From: Bacteroidota bacterium
GTDB taxonomy: Bacteria > Bacteroidota > Bacteroidia > Chitinophagales > Chitinophagaceae
NCBI GenBank assembly: GCA_030706685.1
Contig: JAUZOA010000049.1
Location: 1 to 38,494, forward strand
Direction of reading: 5' to 3'
Length of the DNA stretch: 38,494 bases
The notes below the pieces were generated by a model. It was not told the DNA's origin. It saw nothing but the letters and a program-made list of their open reading frames with translations, and did not search any database. The stretch's first letter is position 1; each line of letters starts with the position of its first letter. Positions 26,920-32,020 of the stretch are shown in pieces. A program made the translations under genes and the position numbers.

Positions 26920-27420
26920 ATGATAAAGTTTTCGGATGAGAAATTAAAAGAGGTACAGCGGATTATTTCCTTTTACCCGGAAGGAAAGCAGAAAAGTGCT
27001 GTGCTTCCTCTATTGCACCTGGCTCAACGGGAGTTTGGCGGGTGGCTGGATGTACCTGTAATGGATTATGTAGCTTCCTTGCTTAATCTATTGCCGGTTG
27101 AAGTGTATGAAGTGGCTACGTTTTACAGCATGTACAACCTCAAGCCGGTAGGCAAATATATGTTCGAGGTTTGCCAGACAGGGCCCTGTATGCTGAATGG
27201 AAGCGATGATATCATCAAATATATTTATGAAAAGCTGGGAATAAAACCGGGCGAAACCACGAATGACGGGATGTTTTCATTGAAGACGGCGGAATGTCTT
27301 GGCGCCTGCGGCTATGCGCCGATGATGCAGATGGGAAAAAACTACCGGGAACATTTGACGAAAGAAAAAATAGATAAGATCATTGAAGAGTGCAGGAATA
27401 ATGCTGTAAGAGCTAATTGA
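26920..27420 (+). CDS. nuoE: NADH-quinone oxidoreductase subunit E (24 kDa)
   Basis: A 166-residue thioredoxin-like ferredoxin subunit. The [2Fe-2S] cluster N1a ligands are Cys85 and Cys90 (CQTGPC) and Cys126 and Cys130 (CLGACGYAP). Part of the NADH dehydrogenase module with NuoF and NuoG. The ATG follows the palindrome noted above. Confidence 0.95.
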   Translation: MIKFSDEKLKEVQRIISFYPEGKQKSAVLPLLHLAQREFGGWLDVPVMDYVASLLNLLPVEVYEVATFYSMYNLKPVGKYMFEVCQTGPCMLNGSDDIIKYIYEKLGIKPGETTNDGMFSLKTAECLGACGYAPMMQMGKNYREHLTKEKIDKIIEECRNNAVRAN

Positions 27421-27422
27421 TA

Positions 27423-27839
27423 ATGAAGAAATTATTTTTCATATTATTTGTATTTATTTCTATTGGTTCCAATGCTCAAACAGAAGAAGAGAAACTGGCA
27501 ACGGTCATAAAGGAATTTCACCAGGCGCTGGTAAATAAGAATATGGCTTCGGTCGGCCAGCAAACGGATAAGGCTTTGAGTTATGGACATAGTAATGGCT
27601 GGGTGGAAACAAAAGCGGATATGCTGAAGGACCTGCAAACAGGATATATTGTTTATAATATATATAAGGAAGACAGTTTGAAGATTACTATGAATGATTC
27701 AATGGCGAATGCAAGATTTGTGGCGGATATCAGCGCTACATTGAATGGGAATACGATAAATCTTCATTTAAAAGTGCTGGAAGTATGGGTGAAAAGAAAT
27801 AAGCAATGGTTGTTGTTTGCCAGGCAGGCGGTAAAATAA
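27423..27839 (+). CDS. Exported NTF2-like (DUF4440/SnoaL-type) protein inserted in nuo operon
   Basis: A 138-residue protein with a signal peptide (MKKLFFILFVFISIGSNAQ). It is followed by an NTF2-like alpha+beta domain: EEEKLATVIKEFHQALVNKNMASV, ALSYGHSNGWVETKADMLKDL, and a C-terminal WVKRNKQWLLFARQAVK strand. Proteins of this fold are small enzymes or binding domains; here the function is unknown. It starts 2 nt after the nuoE stop and precedes nuoF, so it is transcribed with complex I, yet it is exported and is not a complex I subunit. The upstream TTG at 27417 in the same frame was rejected. Confidence 0.75.
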   Translation: MKKLFFILFVFISIGSNAQTEEEKLATVIKEFHQALVNKNMASVGQQTDKALSYGHSNGWVETKADMLKDLQTGYIVYNIYKEDSLKITMNDSMANARFVADISATLNGNTINLHLKVLEVWVKRNKQWLLFARQAVK

Positions 27840-27869
27840 AAATTAAAATATCAGACGGGGTGGCTTCGG

Positions 27870-27884
27870 CCTTGCCCTGCAAGG
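27870..27884. repeat. Short hairpin before nuoF start
   Basis: CCTTGC/GCAAGG with a CCT loop ends 3 nt before the nuoF ATG, so it could cover the ribosome binding region. Confidence 0.5.
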
Positions 27885-27887
27885 ACT

Positions 27888-29240
27888 ATGGGAAGAAAAT
27901 TATTATTGGACAAAGCGCATATTGAAAACATCAGGCTCTATGATGTTTATCGCCAGCATGGCGGTTATCGTAGCGTGGAGAAGGCATTGAAATCAATGAG
28001 TCCTGACCAGGTAACTGAAGAAGTAAAGAAAAGCGGCCTTCGCGGTCGTGGCGGCGCAGGTTTTCCTACCGGTATGAAATGGAGTTTTTTGGCAAAGCCG
28101 GAAGGAGTGCCCCGTTATTTGGTAGTGAATGCTGATGAGTCCGAACCGGGAACTTTTAAAGACAGGTATTTAATGGAGTTCATCCCGCATTTGCTGATCG
28201 AAGGGATGATCACTTCTTCCTATGCATTGGGCTCTAGTCGTTCTTACATCTATATACGCGGCGAATACGCGTGGATCGTTGATATATTGCAACAGGCCAT
28301 TGCAGAGGCAAAGAATAATGGCTGGCTGGGAAAAAATATATTAGGCAGCGGTTTTGATTGTGAAATTTATATTCATCCCGGGGCAGGCGCCTATATCTGC
28401 GGAGAAGAGACTGCCTTGCTGGAATCATTGGAAGGGAAAAGAGGTAATCCAAGAATAAAACCGCCGTTCCCGGCTGTAAAAGGTTTATGGGATTGCCCGA
28501 CAGTTGTCAATAATGTAGAAACCATTGCTGCCGTCGTTCCCATCATCAATGAAGGGGGCGAGGAGTATGCAAAAATCGGGATAGGAAAATCAACAGGCAC
28601 CAAGCTGATTTCTTCCTGCGGGAATATTAATAAACCCGGAGTCTATGAAATAGACATGACCATCTCCGTGGAGGAATTTATCTATAGTGATGAATATTGC
28701 GGGGGGATCGCCAATGGAAAAAGGCTGAAAGCCTGTATCCCCGGCGGATCATCTGTTCCTATTTTGCCGGCTAATCTTTTGCTGAAGACAGCGAAAGGTG
28801 AGACCCGGTTAATGAATTATGAAAGTTTGGCCGATGGTGGATTCCAGACCGGAAGTATGATGGGATCGGGAGGATTTATTGTATTGGATGAAACGCAGTG
28901 TGTCGTAAAGCATACTTATACGCTGGCAAGATTTTATCGTCATGAGAGTTGCGGGCAATGTTCTCCCTGCCGGGAAGGAACAGGGTGGATGGAAAAAATA
29001 TTATTGAATATAGATAATGGTAAAGGAAAAATGAGTGATATCGGCTTGTTGTGGGATATACAGAGAAAAATAGAAGGGAACACGATATGCCCGCTCGGCG
29101 ATGCGGCGGCCTGGCCGGTAGCCGCGGCGATCAGGCATTTCAGGGATGAGTTTGAATGGCATATTACCAACCCGGATGACGCGGTAAGGAGAAATTATGG
29201 GTTGGCGAATTATGCGAAGCCGCTTGAAGTAGTTGCGTAG
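27888..29240 (+). CDS. nuoF: NADH-quinone oxidoreductase subunit F (51 kDa)
   Basis: A 450-residue flavoprotein that oxidises NADH. The NADH/FMN-binding glycine-rich segment is RGRGGAGFPTGMKW, with NADESEPGTFKDR and GAGAYICGEETALLESLEG. The [4Fe-4S] N3 cluster ligands are Cys355, Cys358, Cys361 (CGQCSPC) and Cys401 (TICPLGD). The N-terminal extension before the NADH domain is short, as usual. The stop codon is followed by the left repeat of the GxxExxY cassette. Confidence 0.96.
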   Translation: MGRKLLLDKAHIENIRLYDVYRQHGGYRSVEKALKSMSPDQVTEEVKKSGLRGRGGAGFPTGMKWSFLAKPEGVPRYLVVNADESEPGTFKDRYLMEFIPHLLIEGMITSSYALGSSRSYIYIRGEYAWIVDILQQAIAEAKNNGWLGKNILGSGFDCEIYIHPGAGAYICGEETALLESLEGKRGNPRIKPPFPAVKGLWDCPTVVNNVETIAAVVPIINEGGEEYAKIGIGKSTGTKLISSCGNINKPGVYEIDMTISVEEFIYSDEYCGGIANGKRLKACIPGGSSVPILPANLLLKTAKGETRLMNYESLADGGFQTGSMMGSGGFIVLDETQCVVKHTYTLARFYRHESCGQCSPCREGTGWMEKILLNIDNGKGKMSDIGLLWDIQRKIEGNTICPLGDAAAWPVAAAIRHFRDEFEWHITNPDDAVRRNYGLANYAKPLEVVA

Positions 29241-29248
29241 CATTTCAC

Positions 29249-29283
29249 GCGGCGCACGCAAAGGAGCAAAGAACGCAGCGAGT
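29249..29283. repeat. Left inverted repeat of GxxExxY cassette
   Basis: GC-rich element containing GCGGCGCACGCAAAG and CGCAGCG, 9 nt after the nuoF stop and directly abutting the ATG of the next gene. The reverse complement of 29664-29695 matches it at about two thirds of positions, with one gap. Related GCAAAG-type repeats are common in Bacteroidota intergenic DNA (general knowledge). Confidence 0.7.
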
Positions 29284-29661
29284 ATGAACGAAAATGAAAT
29301 AGCGACATCAGCGTTGGATATTTGTTTTAAGATTCATAAACAATATGGCCCCGGGTTATTTGAAAGTGTGTATGAAGAGATATTCTGCCATGAATTAGCG
29401 AAAACAGGAATACCTTTCAAACGACAACAGGGAATTCCGCTGATTCATGAAGAAATTAAAATGGATATTGGCTTTCGTGCAGATGTGATCATAGAAAATA
29501 AAGTGATTATAGAAATAAAAAGTATCGAGAGTTTGGCAGAGATACACGTTAAGCAAGTACTGACATATTTAAAATTAACGAACTTAAAATTGGGATTATT
29601 GATAAATTTTAATGTTGTGTTTCTTAAAGATGGAATAAAAAGAATCGCTAATAAATTATAA
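29284..29661 (+). CDS. GxxExxY protein (PD-(D/E)XK nuclease-like)
   Basis: A 125-residue protein with the family motif G24-x2-E27-x2-Y30 (GPGLFESVYEE) and a nuclease-like core: Asp67 in FRADVIIENKVIIEIKS, then Glu77-x-Lys79, matching D-x9-E-x-K of the PD-(D/E)XK fold. Family members are widespread, multi-copy and of unknown function. It lies between nuoF and nuoG and is flanked on both sides by GC-rich inverted repeats, as an inserted cassette would be. It looks visibly more AT-rich than its neighbours. A TTG start at 29233 would translate the left repeat and was rejected. Confidence 0.88.
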   Translation: MNENEIATSALDICFKIHKQYGPGLFESVYEEIFCHELAKTGIPFKRQQGIPLIHEEIKMDIGFRADVIIENKVIIEIKSIESLAEIHVKQVLTYLKLTNLKLGLLINFNVVFLKDGIKRIANKL

Positions 29662-29663
29662 AT

Positions 29664-29698
29664 CGCTGCGCCGCATTTTCTTTGCGTCCGCTGCGAGA
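29664..29698. repeat. Right inverted repeat of GxxExxY cassette
   Basis: Contains CGCTGCG near its left edge and TTTGCGTCCGCTGCG near its right edge. It is inverted relative to the left repeat and ends 8 nt before the nuoG ATG. It starts 2 nt after the GxxExxY stop. Confidence 0.7.
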
Positions 29699-29706
29699 AA
29701 CAAAAT

Positions 29707-30822
29707 ATGGCTGAAGAAAAAAAACTTTTCAAAGTAACCATTGACAACATCACTGTCGAAGTGGCGCCCGGCACTACTATTCTCAATGCGGCCCGCCAGA
29801 TTGGTAGCGATGTGACGCCTCCTGCTATGTGTTACTACAGCAAATTGCAGGGAAGCGGGGGTAAATGCCGTACCTGTTTAGTGGAAGTAGCAGCAGGTTC
29901 AACGGCTGATCCGAGACCGATGCCCAAATTAGTGGCCAGTTGCCGCACCAATGTCATGGATGGAATGATAGTAAAGAATATTACCAGTGAACGGGTTTTG
30001 GATGCAAGAGCCGGTGTAGTGGAATTTCTCCTGATCAATCACCCGCTTGATTGTCCCATTTGCGACCAGGCCGGTGAATGTCACTTGCAGGACCTTAGCT
30101 ACGAACATGGCAAGGAGGGAACCCGCTATGAATTTGCAAGAAGAACATTTGAAAAAGAAGATATCGGCCCCTATATACAATTGCACATGACAAGGTGCAT
30201 CCTGTGTTATCGCTGTACTTATGTAGCCGATCAATTAACGGATAAAAGAGTACATGGTATTTTAGACAGGGGCGATCATGCAGAAATATCTACTTATATT
30301 TCAAAAGCGATCGACAATGACTTCAGCGGTAATATGATCGACGTATGTCCTGTAGGCGCTTTGACCGACAAAACCTTTCGGTTCAAGAATCGCGTATGGT
30401 TTACAAAGCCGTTAGACGCGCACCGTGATTGCCCCACTTGTTGCGGTAAAGTGACGCTCTGGAACCGGGGCGACGAAGTATTGAGAGTAACGGCAAGAAA
30501 AGACCAGTGGGGAGAAGTGCAAAGTTATGATGGCAAACCCGGCTGGATCTGCAATACCTGCCGTTTTGATAAAAAGAAATTGAGTGACTGGGTGATCGAA
30601 GGGCCGATGAAAGTAAACAGGCATTCTGTTATTTCAGCTAACAAATATATAGACGCGAAAAGATCTCATGAAACCATAGCGGAGGTAATGGGCGGAAGAC
30701 AGCCGAGGTTAATGATGGATATTCATAATATCAGTGATGTGAATAAACCGGGAGTGCATTTAAGCGAATTGCCCGGCCCGGCAACAGGCGACACGTTTAC
30801 CCCTGATCACAACAAGGAGTAA
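29707..30822 (+). CDS. nuoG: NADH-quinone oxidoreductase subunit G, short form without molybdopterin domain
   Basis: A 371-residue iron-sulfur subunit, far shorter than E. coli NuoG (about 900). Clusters in order: [2Fe-2S] with Cys42, Cys54, Cys57 and Cys79; [4Fe-4S] with His111, Cys115, Cys118 and Cys124 (HPLDCPICDQAGEC); [4Fe-4S] with Cys163, Cys166, Cys169 and Cys213; then CPTCC (241-245) and WICNTC (Cys281, Cys284), which resemble the start of the Mo-bisMGD domain cluster. The molybdopterin-like domain itself is absent and the protein ends in a polar tail. Short NuoG forms are usual in this phylum as far as I know, so this is not a truncation. Confidence 0.9.
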   Translation: MAEEKKLFKVTIDNITVEVAPGTTILNAARQIGSDVTPPAMCYYSKLQGSGGKCRTCLVEVAAGSTADPRPMPKLVASCRTNVMDGMIVKNITSERVLDARAGVVEFLLINHPLDCPICDQAGECHLQDLSYEHGKEGTRYEFARRTFEKEDIGPYIQLHMTRCILCYRCTYVADQLTDKRVHGILDRGDHAEISTYISKAIDNDFSGNMIDVCPVGALTDKTFRFKNRVWFTKPLDAHRDCPTCCGKVTLWNRGDEVLRVTARKDQWGEVQSYDGKPGWICNTCRFDKKKLSDWVIEGPMKVNRHSVISANKYIDAKRSHETIAEVMGGRQPRLMMDIHNISDVNKPGVHLSELPGPATGDTFTPDHNKE

Positions 30823-30930
30823 TTGGGTGAAACCGGTTGGTTTGGGGATTCTAAATGCTAATGGATGATGTTGAAAAAAATTTAGATAAAGCAAGGCGAA
30901 GGAAAAATTGAATTTTGAAACAGTAAATTG

Positions 30931-30944
30931 TCCGCCGCGGCGGA
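30931..30944. repeat. Perfect GC palindrome before nuoH
   Basis: TCCGCCGCGGCGGA is a perfect 14-nt palindrome ending 8 nt before the nuoH ATG, in the otherwise gene-free 130-nt spacer. A near copy precedes nuoI at the same distance. Confidence 0.65.
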
Positions 30945-30952
30945 TATAGGAT

Positions 30953-32020
30953 ATGCACTTACTAATTATTGACTCGTTTTACATCTGGGAGAAGCTTATA
31001 CTGGTAGTGTTTATCGTTACATTATGCATGCTGGTAGCCATGTATGCAACCTATGGGGAACGTAAGGTAGCCGCTTTTCTCCAGGACAGGATTGGACCTA
31101 ATCGCGCCGGGCCCTTTGGTATTTTTCAGCCACTGGCCGACGGGGGAAAATTATTTTTCAAAGAAGAGATTATTCCGCTGGCTTCTTCCAGAACACTTTT
31201 TGTCATCGGCCCCATGCTGGCCATGACCACTGCCTTGCTTACGAGCGCTGTGATCCCCTGGGGACCCGCCTTGCATATTAAAAACCGGAATGTTCCTTTC
31301 CAGATAGCGGATATTAATATTGGCATCCTTTACATTTTTGGCGTGGTCAGTCTCGGCGTATACGGCATCATGATTGGCGGATGGGCATCCAATAATAAGT
31401 TTTCCTTGCTGGCAGCTATCCGGGGCGCTTCCCAGATGATATCTTACGAACTGGCGATGGGCCTGGCCCTGATCGCATTGCTGATGCTTACGGGCTCATT
31501 GCAAATGAGTGATATCGTCGATCACCAGGTACATGGAAGATGGGGAGGATTTTTAAGCTGGCATATTGTGCGCCAGCCACTTGGTTTTTTGATCTTTTTT
31601 ATCTGTGCCCTGGCAGAATGTAACCGGACTCCTTTTGATCTTGCTGAAGCGGAGAACGAACTGAATTTCGGTTATCACCAGGAATACTCATCCATGAAAC
31701 TGGGATTTTATTTGTTTGCCGAATATATCAATATGTTCATCAGCGGGGTGGTGATGTCTACTTTATTCCTGGGCGGTTATGATATTCCGTTTGTGAACGA
31801 AGCCAGTTGGCATATTGACCCCAATTGGCTGGCTGTAATCGGTTTTTGTGTATTATTAGCCAAGGCATTTTTCTTTGTATTTGTTTTTATGTGGATACGC
31901 TGGACAGTTCCGCGTTTCCGTTATGACCAGTTGATGAATCTTGGCTGGAAGAAACTGATACCATTAGCGCTGCTCAATATGATTGTTACGGCAGTGGTGG
32001 TATTGTGGATGAGAAAATGA
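30953..32020 (+). CDS. nuoH: NADH-quinone oxidoreductase subunit H
   Basis: A 355-residue membrane subunit with about eight transmembrane helices, forming the quinone entry chamber and first proton channel. Signatures are YGERKVAAFLQDRIGPNRAG with the conserved glutamate and arginine loop, RGASQMISYELAMG, and ECNRTPFDLAEAENELNFGY. The start ATG is directly after the GC palindrome. Confidence 0.95.
   Translation: MHLLIIDSFYIWEKLILVVFIVTLCMLVAMYATYGERKVAAFLQDRIGPNRAGPFGIFQPLADGGKLFFKEEIIPLASSRTLFVIGPMLAMTTALLTSAVIPWGPALHIKNRNVPFQIADINIGILYIFGVVSLGVYGIMIGGWASNNKFSLLAAIRGASQMISYELAMGLALIALLMLTGSLQMSDIVDHQVHGRWGGFLSWHIVRQPLGFLIFFICALAECNRTPFDLAEAENELNFGYHQEYSSMKLGFYLFAEYINMFISGVVMSTLFLGGYDIPFVNEASWHIDPNWLAVIGFCVLLAKAFFFVFVFMWIRWTVPRFRYDQLMNLGWKKLIPLALLNMIVTAVVVLWMRK

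Follow-up and report, generated by a model that had tools for sequence, protein, structure and literature searches.

GxxExxY genes are commonly enclosed between inverted arms, in several phyla, and we consider it probable, with somewhat more than even confidence, that gene and arms form a small selfish element, whose nuclease would recognise its own arms and spread them with or without the gene; this would be a REPIN/RAYT-like arrangement, based on an unrelated enzyme. One such gene lies between nuoF and nuoG in the window, i.e., in the whole stretch of 38,494 nt that was analysed, which belongs to a Bacteroidota bacterium.

The GxxExxY gene of the window (29284-29661, + strand) codes for a protein of 125 aa and was assigned by family profiles, conserved residues, an AlphaFold2 (AF2) model and Foldseek. 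Its neighbours, both recognised from their domains, are nuoF (27888-29240, +), whose TAG stop codon (29238-29240, +) forms the left boundary, and nuoG (29707-30822, +), whose start forms the right one; the GxxExxY frame also has an in-frame upstream TTG at 29233. Another small ORF, with no NCBIfam match, is found at 27417-27839, between a nuoE-like frame and nuoF. The protein reaches 131.6 bits with TIGR04256 (GxxExxY, cut-off 35) and 129.5 bits with PF13366 (PDDEXK_3, cut-off 22), the latter being its sole Pfam match. Among 18 diverse members E27, D67, E77, K79 and Y95 are invariant, and Q91 is kept in at least 90% of them.

The AlphaFold2 model, obtained with 44 aligned relatives, has a pLDDT of 95 and a pTM of 0.88. 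The best match of the model in the PDB with Foldseek was SSO0001 (E 7.6e-3, probability 1.00, TM 0.54 by query), a Cas4 protein, followed by the alkaline exonuclease LHK-Exo; AddAB, lambda exonuclease, Hjc, the R2 protein and I-Bth0305I were placed lower, with weak E-values, and none of the matches reached E 0.001. At the sequence level, no relative of the protein was found in the PDB at E≤1. The order of the Foldseek matches, together with the conserved E...D...ExK...QxxxY residues, including the QxxxY motif, suggests a PD-(D/E)XK fold of the RecB/Cas4/lambda-exonuclease type, and the protein would be expected to act as a nuclease. Other identities were considered and rejected: a defence system, as PADLOC gave no match for four GxxExxY proteins; a plasmid-borne gene, as tblastn with the window protein alone retrieved 4 of 72,556 plasmid records; and a phage gene, as the single weak PHROG match, in one of the four proteins, was CRISPR-associated.

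The left arm of the window cassette (29243-29283, +) begins 3 nt past the nuoF stop and, as the sequence-only reading had noticed, abuts the start codon of the GxxExxY gene, with the ATG at 29284. The right arm (29662-29700, -), inverted with respect to the left one, ends 6 nt before the nuoG ATG, a distance previously given as 8 nt. The inverted repeats reported around the gene are borne out by a best core that pairs 29243-29263 with 29680-29700, over 21 nt and with 86% complementarity, the complete arms being more degenerate. The left arm, TTTCACGCGGCGCACGCAAAGGAGCAAAGAACGCAGCGAGT, contains, by eye, four units of the CGCAAAG kind, at 29248, 29257, approximately 29265 and 29274, that is with spacings of about 9, 8-9 and 9 nt, and the whole cassette is 458 nt long. 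The arm pair has a score of 27, which 4.4% of the mismatched left/right pairs from 30 loci of the genus also reach; taken alone, it is not clearly beyond chance, and its significance comes from the family.

To compare flanks across the family, the 250 nt upstream of each gene were aligned with the reverse complement of the 250 nt downstream. The comparison took 131 of 143 loci: 28 of 34 from the genus, 28 of 29 from elsewhere in the phylum (the best matches per genome) and 75 of 80 from a named set spanning several phyla (the best 80 of 569); L010 and L022, with no profile match, were dropped, and the remaining exclusions were incomplete or duplicate loci and loci close to the end of a contig. 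An inverted-flank score of at least 29 was found at 87 of the 131 loci, compared with 2 of 595 random windows of the same length and 4 of 177 other ORFs of 100-250 aa, taken from the same loci. Thus, such repeats do flank other GxxExxY genes, as had been anticipated; 44 of the 131 loci score below 29, including L002 and L008 of the window's own genome. Because loci sharing an orthologous site cannot be treated as independent, the main counts were repeated per site, by grouping loci with shared flanking DNA: the score was reached in at least one locus at 58 of 83 sites, and at 37 of the 60 sites represented by a single locus. The nuoF-nuoG junction contributes 8 of the 131 loci (L004, L064, L066, L067, L068, L070, L071 and L101). 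Among the loci from outside Bacteroidota, 12 of 15 pass (L082, L087 and L140 fail); the 15 come from Acidobacteriota, Cyanobacteriota, Planctomycetota, Ignavibacteriota, a Desulfuromonadaceae member, Methylobacter, Sumerlaeota, Cloacimonadota and Methanothrix.

The window's genome (G000, 5.74 Mb) contains nine full GxxExxY genes and one remnant, and 7 of these 10 loci have an inverted pair that is reached by fewer than 5% of mismatched pairs, the exceptions being L002, L008 and the remnant, L010. In L007 the arms are near-perfect, extending over 59 columns with a score of 103. The repeated unit varies among copies and includes ACACAAAG, ACACGGAT, GCGAAT/CGCTAAT, GATAAATGAGA and others. The frequency with which mismatched pairs equal the window pair could indicate GC-rich spacers that are inverted by accident; however, the family counts against both controls and the arms of L007 refute this for the family, also when sites are counted instead of loci, and such an origin by chance or composition has a negligible probability.

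The four control ORFs that have arms look themselves like members of a second family, the four-helix-bundle (S23/23S-IVS protein) genes; L076 and L079 were confirmed as PF05635 by Pfam, and L090 and L092 were recognised by eye. When PF05635 loci, chosen as each genome's best matches (among L187-L216), were compared in the same way, 28 of 30 being usable and two being cut by contig ends, a score of at least 29 was found in 14 of 28, versus 8 of 756 mismatched pairs. Their arms consist of short units such as TCAGTAA, and in 18 four-helix elements with a score of at least 27 a stop codon was located upstream within 12 nt of the arm in 13 and at 16 nt in one, while none was found in four. The window's genome has 13 PF05635 matches, and 45 of 61 sampled genomes of the phylum have one. 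Because four-helix-bundle genes have the same architecture, either the nuclease is not required for it or two systems converged; an architecture common to two unrelated proteins may reflect two self-serving genes that converged, or a machinery that both use.

As regards the anatomy of the arms, a search limited to C[GA]C-type units in both arms of the 131 loci (262 arms) identified a run of at least three units in 89 arms and four units in 32. The four units follow an x,y,x spacing, with y>x, in 29 of the 32 arms, a raw count in which some arms are orthologous; the gaps are 9,11,9 in eight arms, 9,12,9 in seven, 10,11,10 in four and 10,12,10 in four, and the remaining six have a longer middle gap. 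Four units are also visible, by eye, in ACACGGAT-type arms. The two arms of an element mostly point toward the gene; in some other elements, e.g. L101, L085 and L114, both are reversed (by eye).

Inverted arms might also operate at the RNA level, similarly to the 23S intervening sequences (IVS), with base pairing of the arms in the mRNA and cleavage of the operon message around the gene by RNase III or by the protein itself. Many cassettes are indeed sense-oriented between co-directional genes, and the four-helix-bundle proteins typical of the 23S IVS share the architecture in the present loci. An RNA stem under selection should favour mismatches that are compatible with G.U pairing on the sense strand; however, no such excess is observed between left and right arms, neither in the 87 GxxExxY elements (108 sense-compatible versus 114 opposite, p=0.74) nor in the four-helix-bundle ones (13 versus 18, p=0.47). 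Moreover, Rfam gave no match at E≤1 in positions 27000-31000 of the window, and arrays of direct units at a preferred spacing are unneeded for pairing. The wobble comparison and the absent Rfam match disfavour an RNA hairpin as the main reading, and we regard an RNA-level element as quite unlikely; since the mismatches lack a G.U signature, the symmetry of the arms seems to be kept as DNA.

The position of the arms relative to the neighbouring genes is also recurrent. In 46 of the 87 elements (25 of 58 per site) an arm starts no more than 8 nt from a stop codon that ends a co-directional frame of ≥100 codons, versus 13 of 1,355 random positions of the same loci; the other arm ends between -5 and 15 nt from the start of a co-directional frame in 40 of 87 (raw count), and in some elements the stop codon is supplied by the arm itself. 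For gene-less elements, nine of 23 compact inverted repeats are situated no more than 12 nt from a gene's 3′ terminus, in a set that combines too many kinds to carry weight. An aminotransferase-like gene (by eye) is preceded by a cassette in G000 and followed by one in G006 and G001 (L007, L015, L028), and in the latter two genomes the arm provides its stop codon; glpK, glpD, scpA, scpB, hemW and the aminotransferase were all named by eye from their translations.

Junctions were compared between species, and both occupied and empty states were found. Sixteen nuoF-nuoG junctions with both genes, window included, comprise five with a GxxExxY gene, seven with a spacer of 7-100 nt, three with a four-helix-bundle gene or its remnant and one with another insert; the place is also occupied in seven additional named loci, from Lacibacter, Niabella and others. 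Four-helix-bundle genes are present at nuoF-nuoG in the relatives L147 and L152, and a remnant, by eye, in L154. At one junction, identified by eye as scpA-scpB, eight genomes of one genus were compared: the anchors are 20-21 nt apart in three of them; four have a full-length match to GxxExxY, the end of the upstream gene bearing GGTTGAACCACAGAG and an arm directly preceding the following ATG; and in the eighth the GxxExxY gene is broken and lies between arm remnants. Two more junctions of the window's genus are occupied in some genomes and empty in others, with a decayed copy present as well at one of the two. At nuoF-nuoG, at two junctions of the window's genus and at one of another genus, the relatives are too diverged for a target-site duplication to be read.

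The sequence-only reading had proposed an insertion between nuoF and nuoG: the empty sites that it called for exist, as the seven spacers indicate, and the site is not occupied in all relatives, just as the flanks are not missing from other GxxExxY genes. A recent event at this junction is not established, the site being occupied in many relatives. More generally, many sites are common to relatives, which makes these cassettes more like residents than active transposons. GxxExxY genes with stop codons or internal deletions, and with arms that remain, were observed at L128, L015, L034, L295 and L303; broken genes with the arms left in place are as expected of a decaying selfish gene.

The relationship between arms and protein lineage was studied by scoring the left end of each locus against the right ends of the others and relating this similarity to the identity of the two proteins. 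The closer the proteins, the more alike the arms (rho 0.259 among protein pairs with less than 60% identity, with none of 999 permutations as high); the value is 0.260 when same-site pairs are left out and 0.269 with one locus per site, again with no permutation out of 999 as high. Arm sequence follows the lineage of the protein, even where the sites are unrelated, and the correlation is modest. At nuoF-nuoG itself the arms of 12 elements from different genomes differ: the mean score between an element's own left and right arms is 32.6, versus 21.0 for cross pairs, and for 6 of the 12 left arms the best-scoring right arm is the element's own.

The protein tree was built on 115 columns, and many of its forks are not resolvable according to its program's warning. 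The nuoF-nuoG genes do not form one clade, and the well-supported branches force at least three site changes, which may equal one gain and two losses. L020, located at another site in G002, groups with L071 (100/90) within a supported group of nuoF-nuoG genes. Conversely, L101 resides at nuoF-nuoG and is an outsider both in the tree, where it pairs with L005 (support 100/91), and in its arms, which are reversed with a 9,11,9 spacing; in this one judgeable case of disagreement between site and lineage, the arms side with the lineage. L020 in G002 and L032 in G001 have similar flanks, different arms and genes of different GxxExxY lineages. The match between arms and lineage could be explained also by co-inheritance of arms and gene as a unit, without recognition.

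Palindromes made of arms without the gene occur where the matching gene is found, in the one genus in which two patterns were searched, one drawn from the window's arms and the other, ACACGGATGACACGG, from one arm type. The window-arm pattern has 79 matches in the window's genome, two of which are the window cassette, and 0, 1, 6, 0, 1 and 0 in six congeners; the reversed pattern, used as a control, has none. The 14 loci inspected in G000 are palindromes with no GxxExxY gene between the arms, so that the solo copies of the repeats expected from the window do exist; several are in tandem at about 107 nt, with an arm, TTTCACGCAGAGAACGCAGAGGAGCAAAGRACGCAAAG, close to that of the window. The tandem palindromic units of about 107 nt with window-type arms at L246, L253, L255, L260 and L263 of G000 are BIME-like. 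The ACACGGATGACACGG pattern has 13, 3, 49, 4 and 20 matches in five genomes containing a gene of the matching clade, two each of the 3 in G001 and of the 4 in G004 being the cassette's own arms, and none in G002 and G005. The GxxExxY matches listed for these two genomes, L016 and L020 in G002 and L014 and L022 in G005, belong to other clades, by tree for L016, L020 and L014 and by eye for L022, which is a remnant. The smallest gene-less copies are 76-80 bp long and consist of 4+4 units, with almost nothing between the arms. A 390-kb survey, covering about 7% of the genome in contigs chosen for earlier matches, detected 13 inverted pairs with a score of at least 38. No gene-less palindrome was found at the cassette site of a relative.

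Some sets of gene-less copies carry extra outer inverted repeats, GGTAGTGTACCAGTTTG in G000 and CAGGGCAGACGCATTAAA in G003; part of the high copy number belongs to such elements with outer repeats, and another transposase may have multiplied them. MITE-like elements of about 120 bp were observed at L244, L252, L256, L265 and L240 of G000 and at L238 of G003, with an outer inverted repeat like GGTAGTGTACCAGTTTGG and CGCAGCG-type arms inside. A gene-less family of 165-183 bp in G003 (L268, L270-L273, L277) has ACACGGAT arms and further shared flanks, and several of its copies end in a CAGGGCAGACGCATTAAA-like repeat. In G000:C49:1925-2234 (L178) a decayed ACACGGAT element contains a nested palindrome of the CACAGATT type.

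The location of some gene-less copies within larger elements with outer inverted repeats raises the question of whether the arms are only passengers, spread by an unrelated transposase (IS/MITE) or by recombination, with GxxExxY as cargo. The four-helix-bundle genes in the same architecture, and an arm-lineage match that could be co-inherited, fit this explanation as well. However, the window cassette and the minimal copies of 76-80 bp have no outer repeats, a cargo gene would not obviously need the matching arm type wherever its lineage moves, and cargo would not obviously explain why ACACGGAT arms are missing from the two congeners that have no gene of this clade. The genome's two Y1-transposase matches, one of them over the cut-off, have no arms either (inverted-flank scores 18-19), and palindromes driven by a RAYT were rejected on the same evidence. 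Overall, we consider the passenger explanation improbable, though it deserves more weight than an RNA-level element.

The arms could also be operators, bound by the GxxExxY protein for the regulation of itself or of the host operon, in a domesticated unit. Short units at near-helical spacing, the arm-lineage matching and the shared residence at sites such as nuoF-nuoG would all suit a DNA-binding regulator. On the other hand, a second, mirror-image array downstream of the gene would be unusual for an operator, and the nuclease core residues are conserved; the tens of gene-less palindromes, the decayed copies and the patchy presence (a GxxExxY match in 74 of 148 sampled genomes of the phylum) look selfish. 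A role as operators is thus unlikely, about as much as one in RNA.

The selfish element that we favour would be composed of a left arm of about four short units, the GxxExxY gene and an inverted right arm. The GxxExxY protein would be an endonuclease recognising its own arms, and units placed about one helical turn apart suggest that a multimer may bind on one face of the DNA. The resulting DNA break would start the copying of the arm-flanked segment; this could occur by homing-like copy-in between the halves of a gene-less palindrome, which would represent an intact double site that the gene splits, or, alternatively, arm-flanked segments may move in a REPIN-like way. Insertion after one gene's stop codon and ahead of the next start would allow co-transcription with the host operon, leaving the operon unbroken. 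Both cutting and movement by GxxExxY are activities that we infer.

A broader proposal, to which we give slightly less than an even chance, is that the GxxExxY and four-helix cassettes form two branches of a so far unnamed class of bacterial mobile elements. These would be single-gene 'operon riders' bounded by inverted, protein-matched runs of short units (some four per arm in many GxxExxY cassettes), often flush between stop and start, and with REPIN-like gene-less forms that would account for a considerable part of the palindromes dispersed in their hosts; GxxExxY would be a RecB/Cas4-type endonuclease with a multi-unit site that changes by lineage. Both families are multi-copy small genes, to which the lineage-arm link gives a testable job, and the same link would explain a class of interspersed palindromes. 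The GxxExxY set would also offer nuclease-like proteins with paired candidate targets, for the study of how a PD-(D/E)XK protein acquires long DNA specificity in evolution.

Among known systems, REPINs are described, in passages of PMC3116915, as inverted repeat doublets of the extragenic space, with gene types tied to repeat groups. As far as those passages go, REPIN/RAYT and GxxExxY are alike, by analogy and not homology, in having a small gene beside its own short repeats and gene-less inverted doublets. Unlike RAYT, which is a Y1 HUH transposase, GxxExxY is of the PD-(D/E)XK, RecB/Cas4 type, and Pfam detected no Y1 domain in the window protein; moreover, its arms are arrays of about four units, while REP is one small hairpin, and its elements, unlike REPIN/RAYT, are often flush at a stop codon. 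The REP/RAYT resemblance that had been proposed holds for the cognate flanks and the gene-less doublets, and does not extend to membership, given the missing Y1 domain.

The 23S IVS, in the passages of PMC4990558 that describe them, contain a four-helix-bundle ORF and terminal inverted repeats cut by RNase III, and have a patchy distribution; the Coxiella IVS is reported there with a length of 428. The IVS of Coxiella and Leptospira resemble the window cassette in their size of about 400-500 nt, single small ORF, terminal inverted repeats and patchiness. Their PF05635 genes have, in the present dataset, the same architecture as GxxExxY; the window cassette differs from the IVS in lying between protein genes, in having no G.U signature and in its fold.

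Homing genes offer a further comparison, I-Ssp6803I being a PD-(D/E)XK homing endonuclease. Like them, GxxExxY is the sole nuclease-like gene of its element, with occupied and empty sites and gene-less palindromes that it would split; unlike them, it has no intron or intein and possesses its own repeat arms, and homing is proposed here by analogy. Terminal inverted repeats and gene-less derivatives are shared with IS and MITE elements, from which the cassette seems to be distinguished by the absence of a transposase domain from the Pfam matches of its protein and by arms of short direct units. Literature searches with the repeat strings listed matches that are unrelated by title and start of the abstract, and the passages naming GxxExxY include none on repeats; papers outside the search, or the notes of the curators of TIGR04256 and TIGR02436, may mention them, and a prior remark on the repeats may exist. 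Because REPIN/RAYT fails on the enzyme, the IVS on location and homing on the event, and the GxxExxY passages are silent on repeats, we rate the GxxExxY cassette as a new kind of element.
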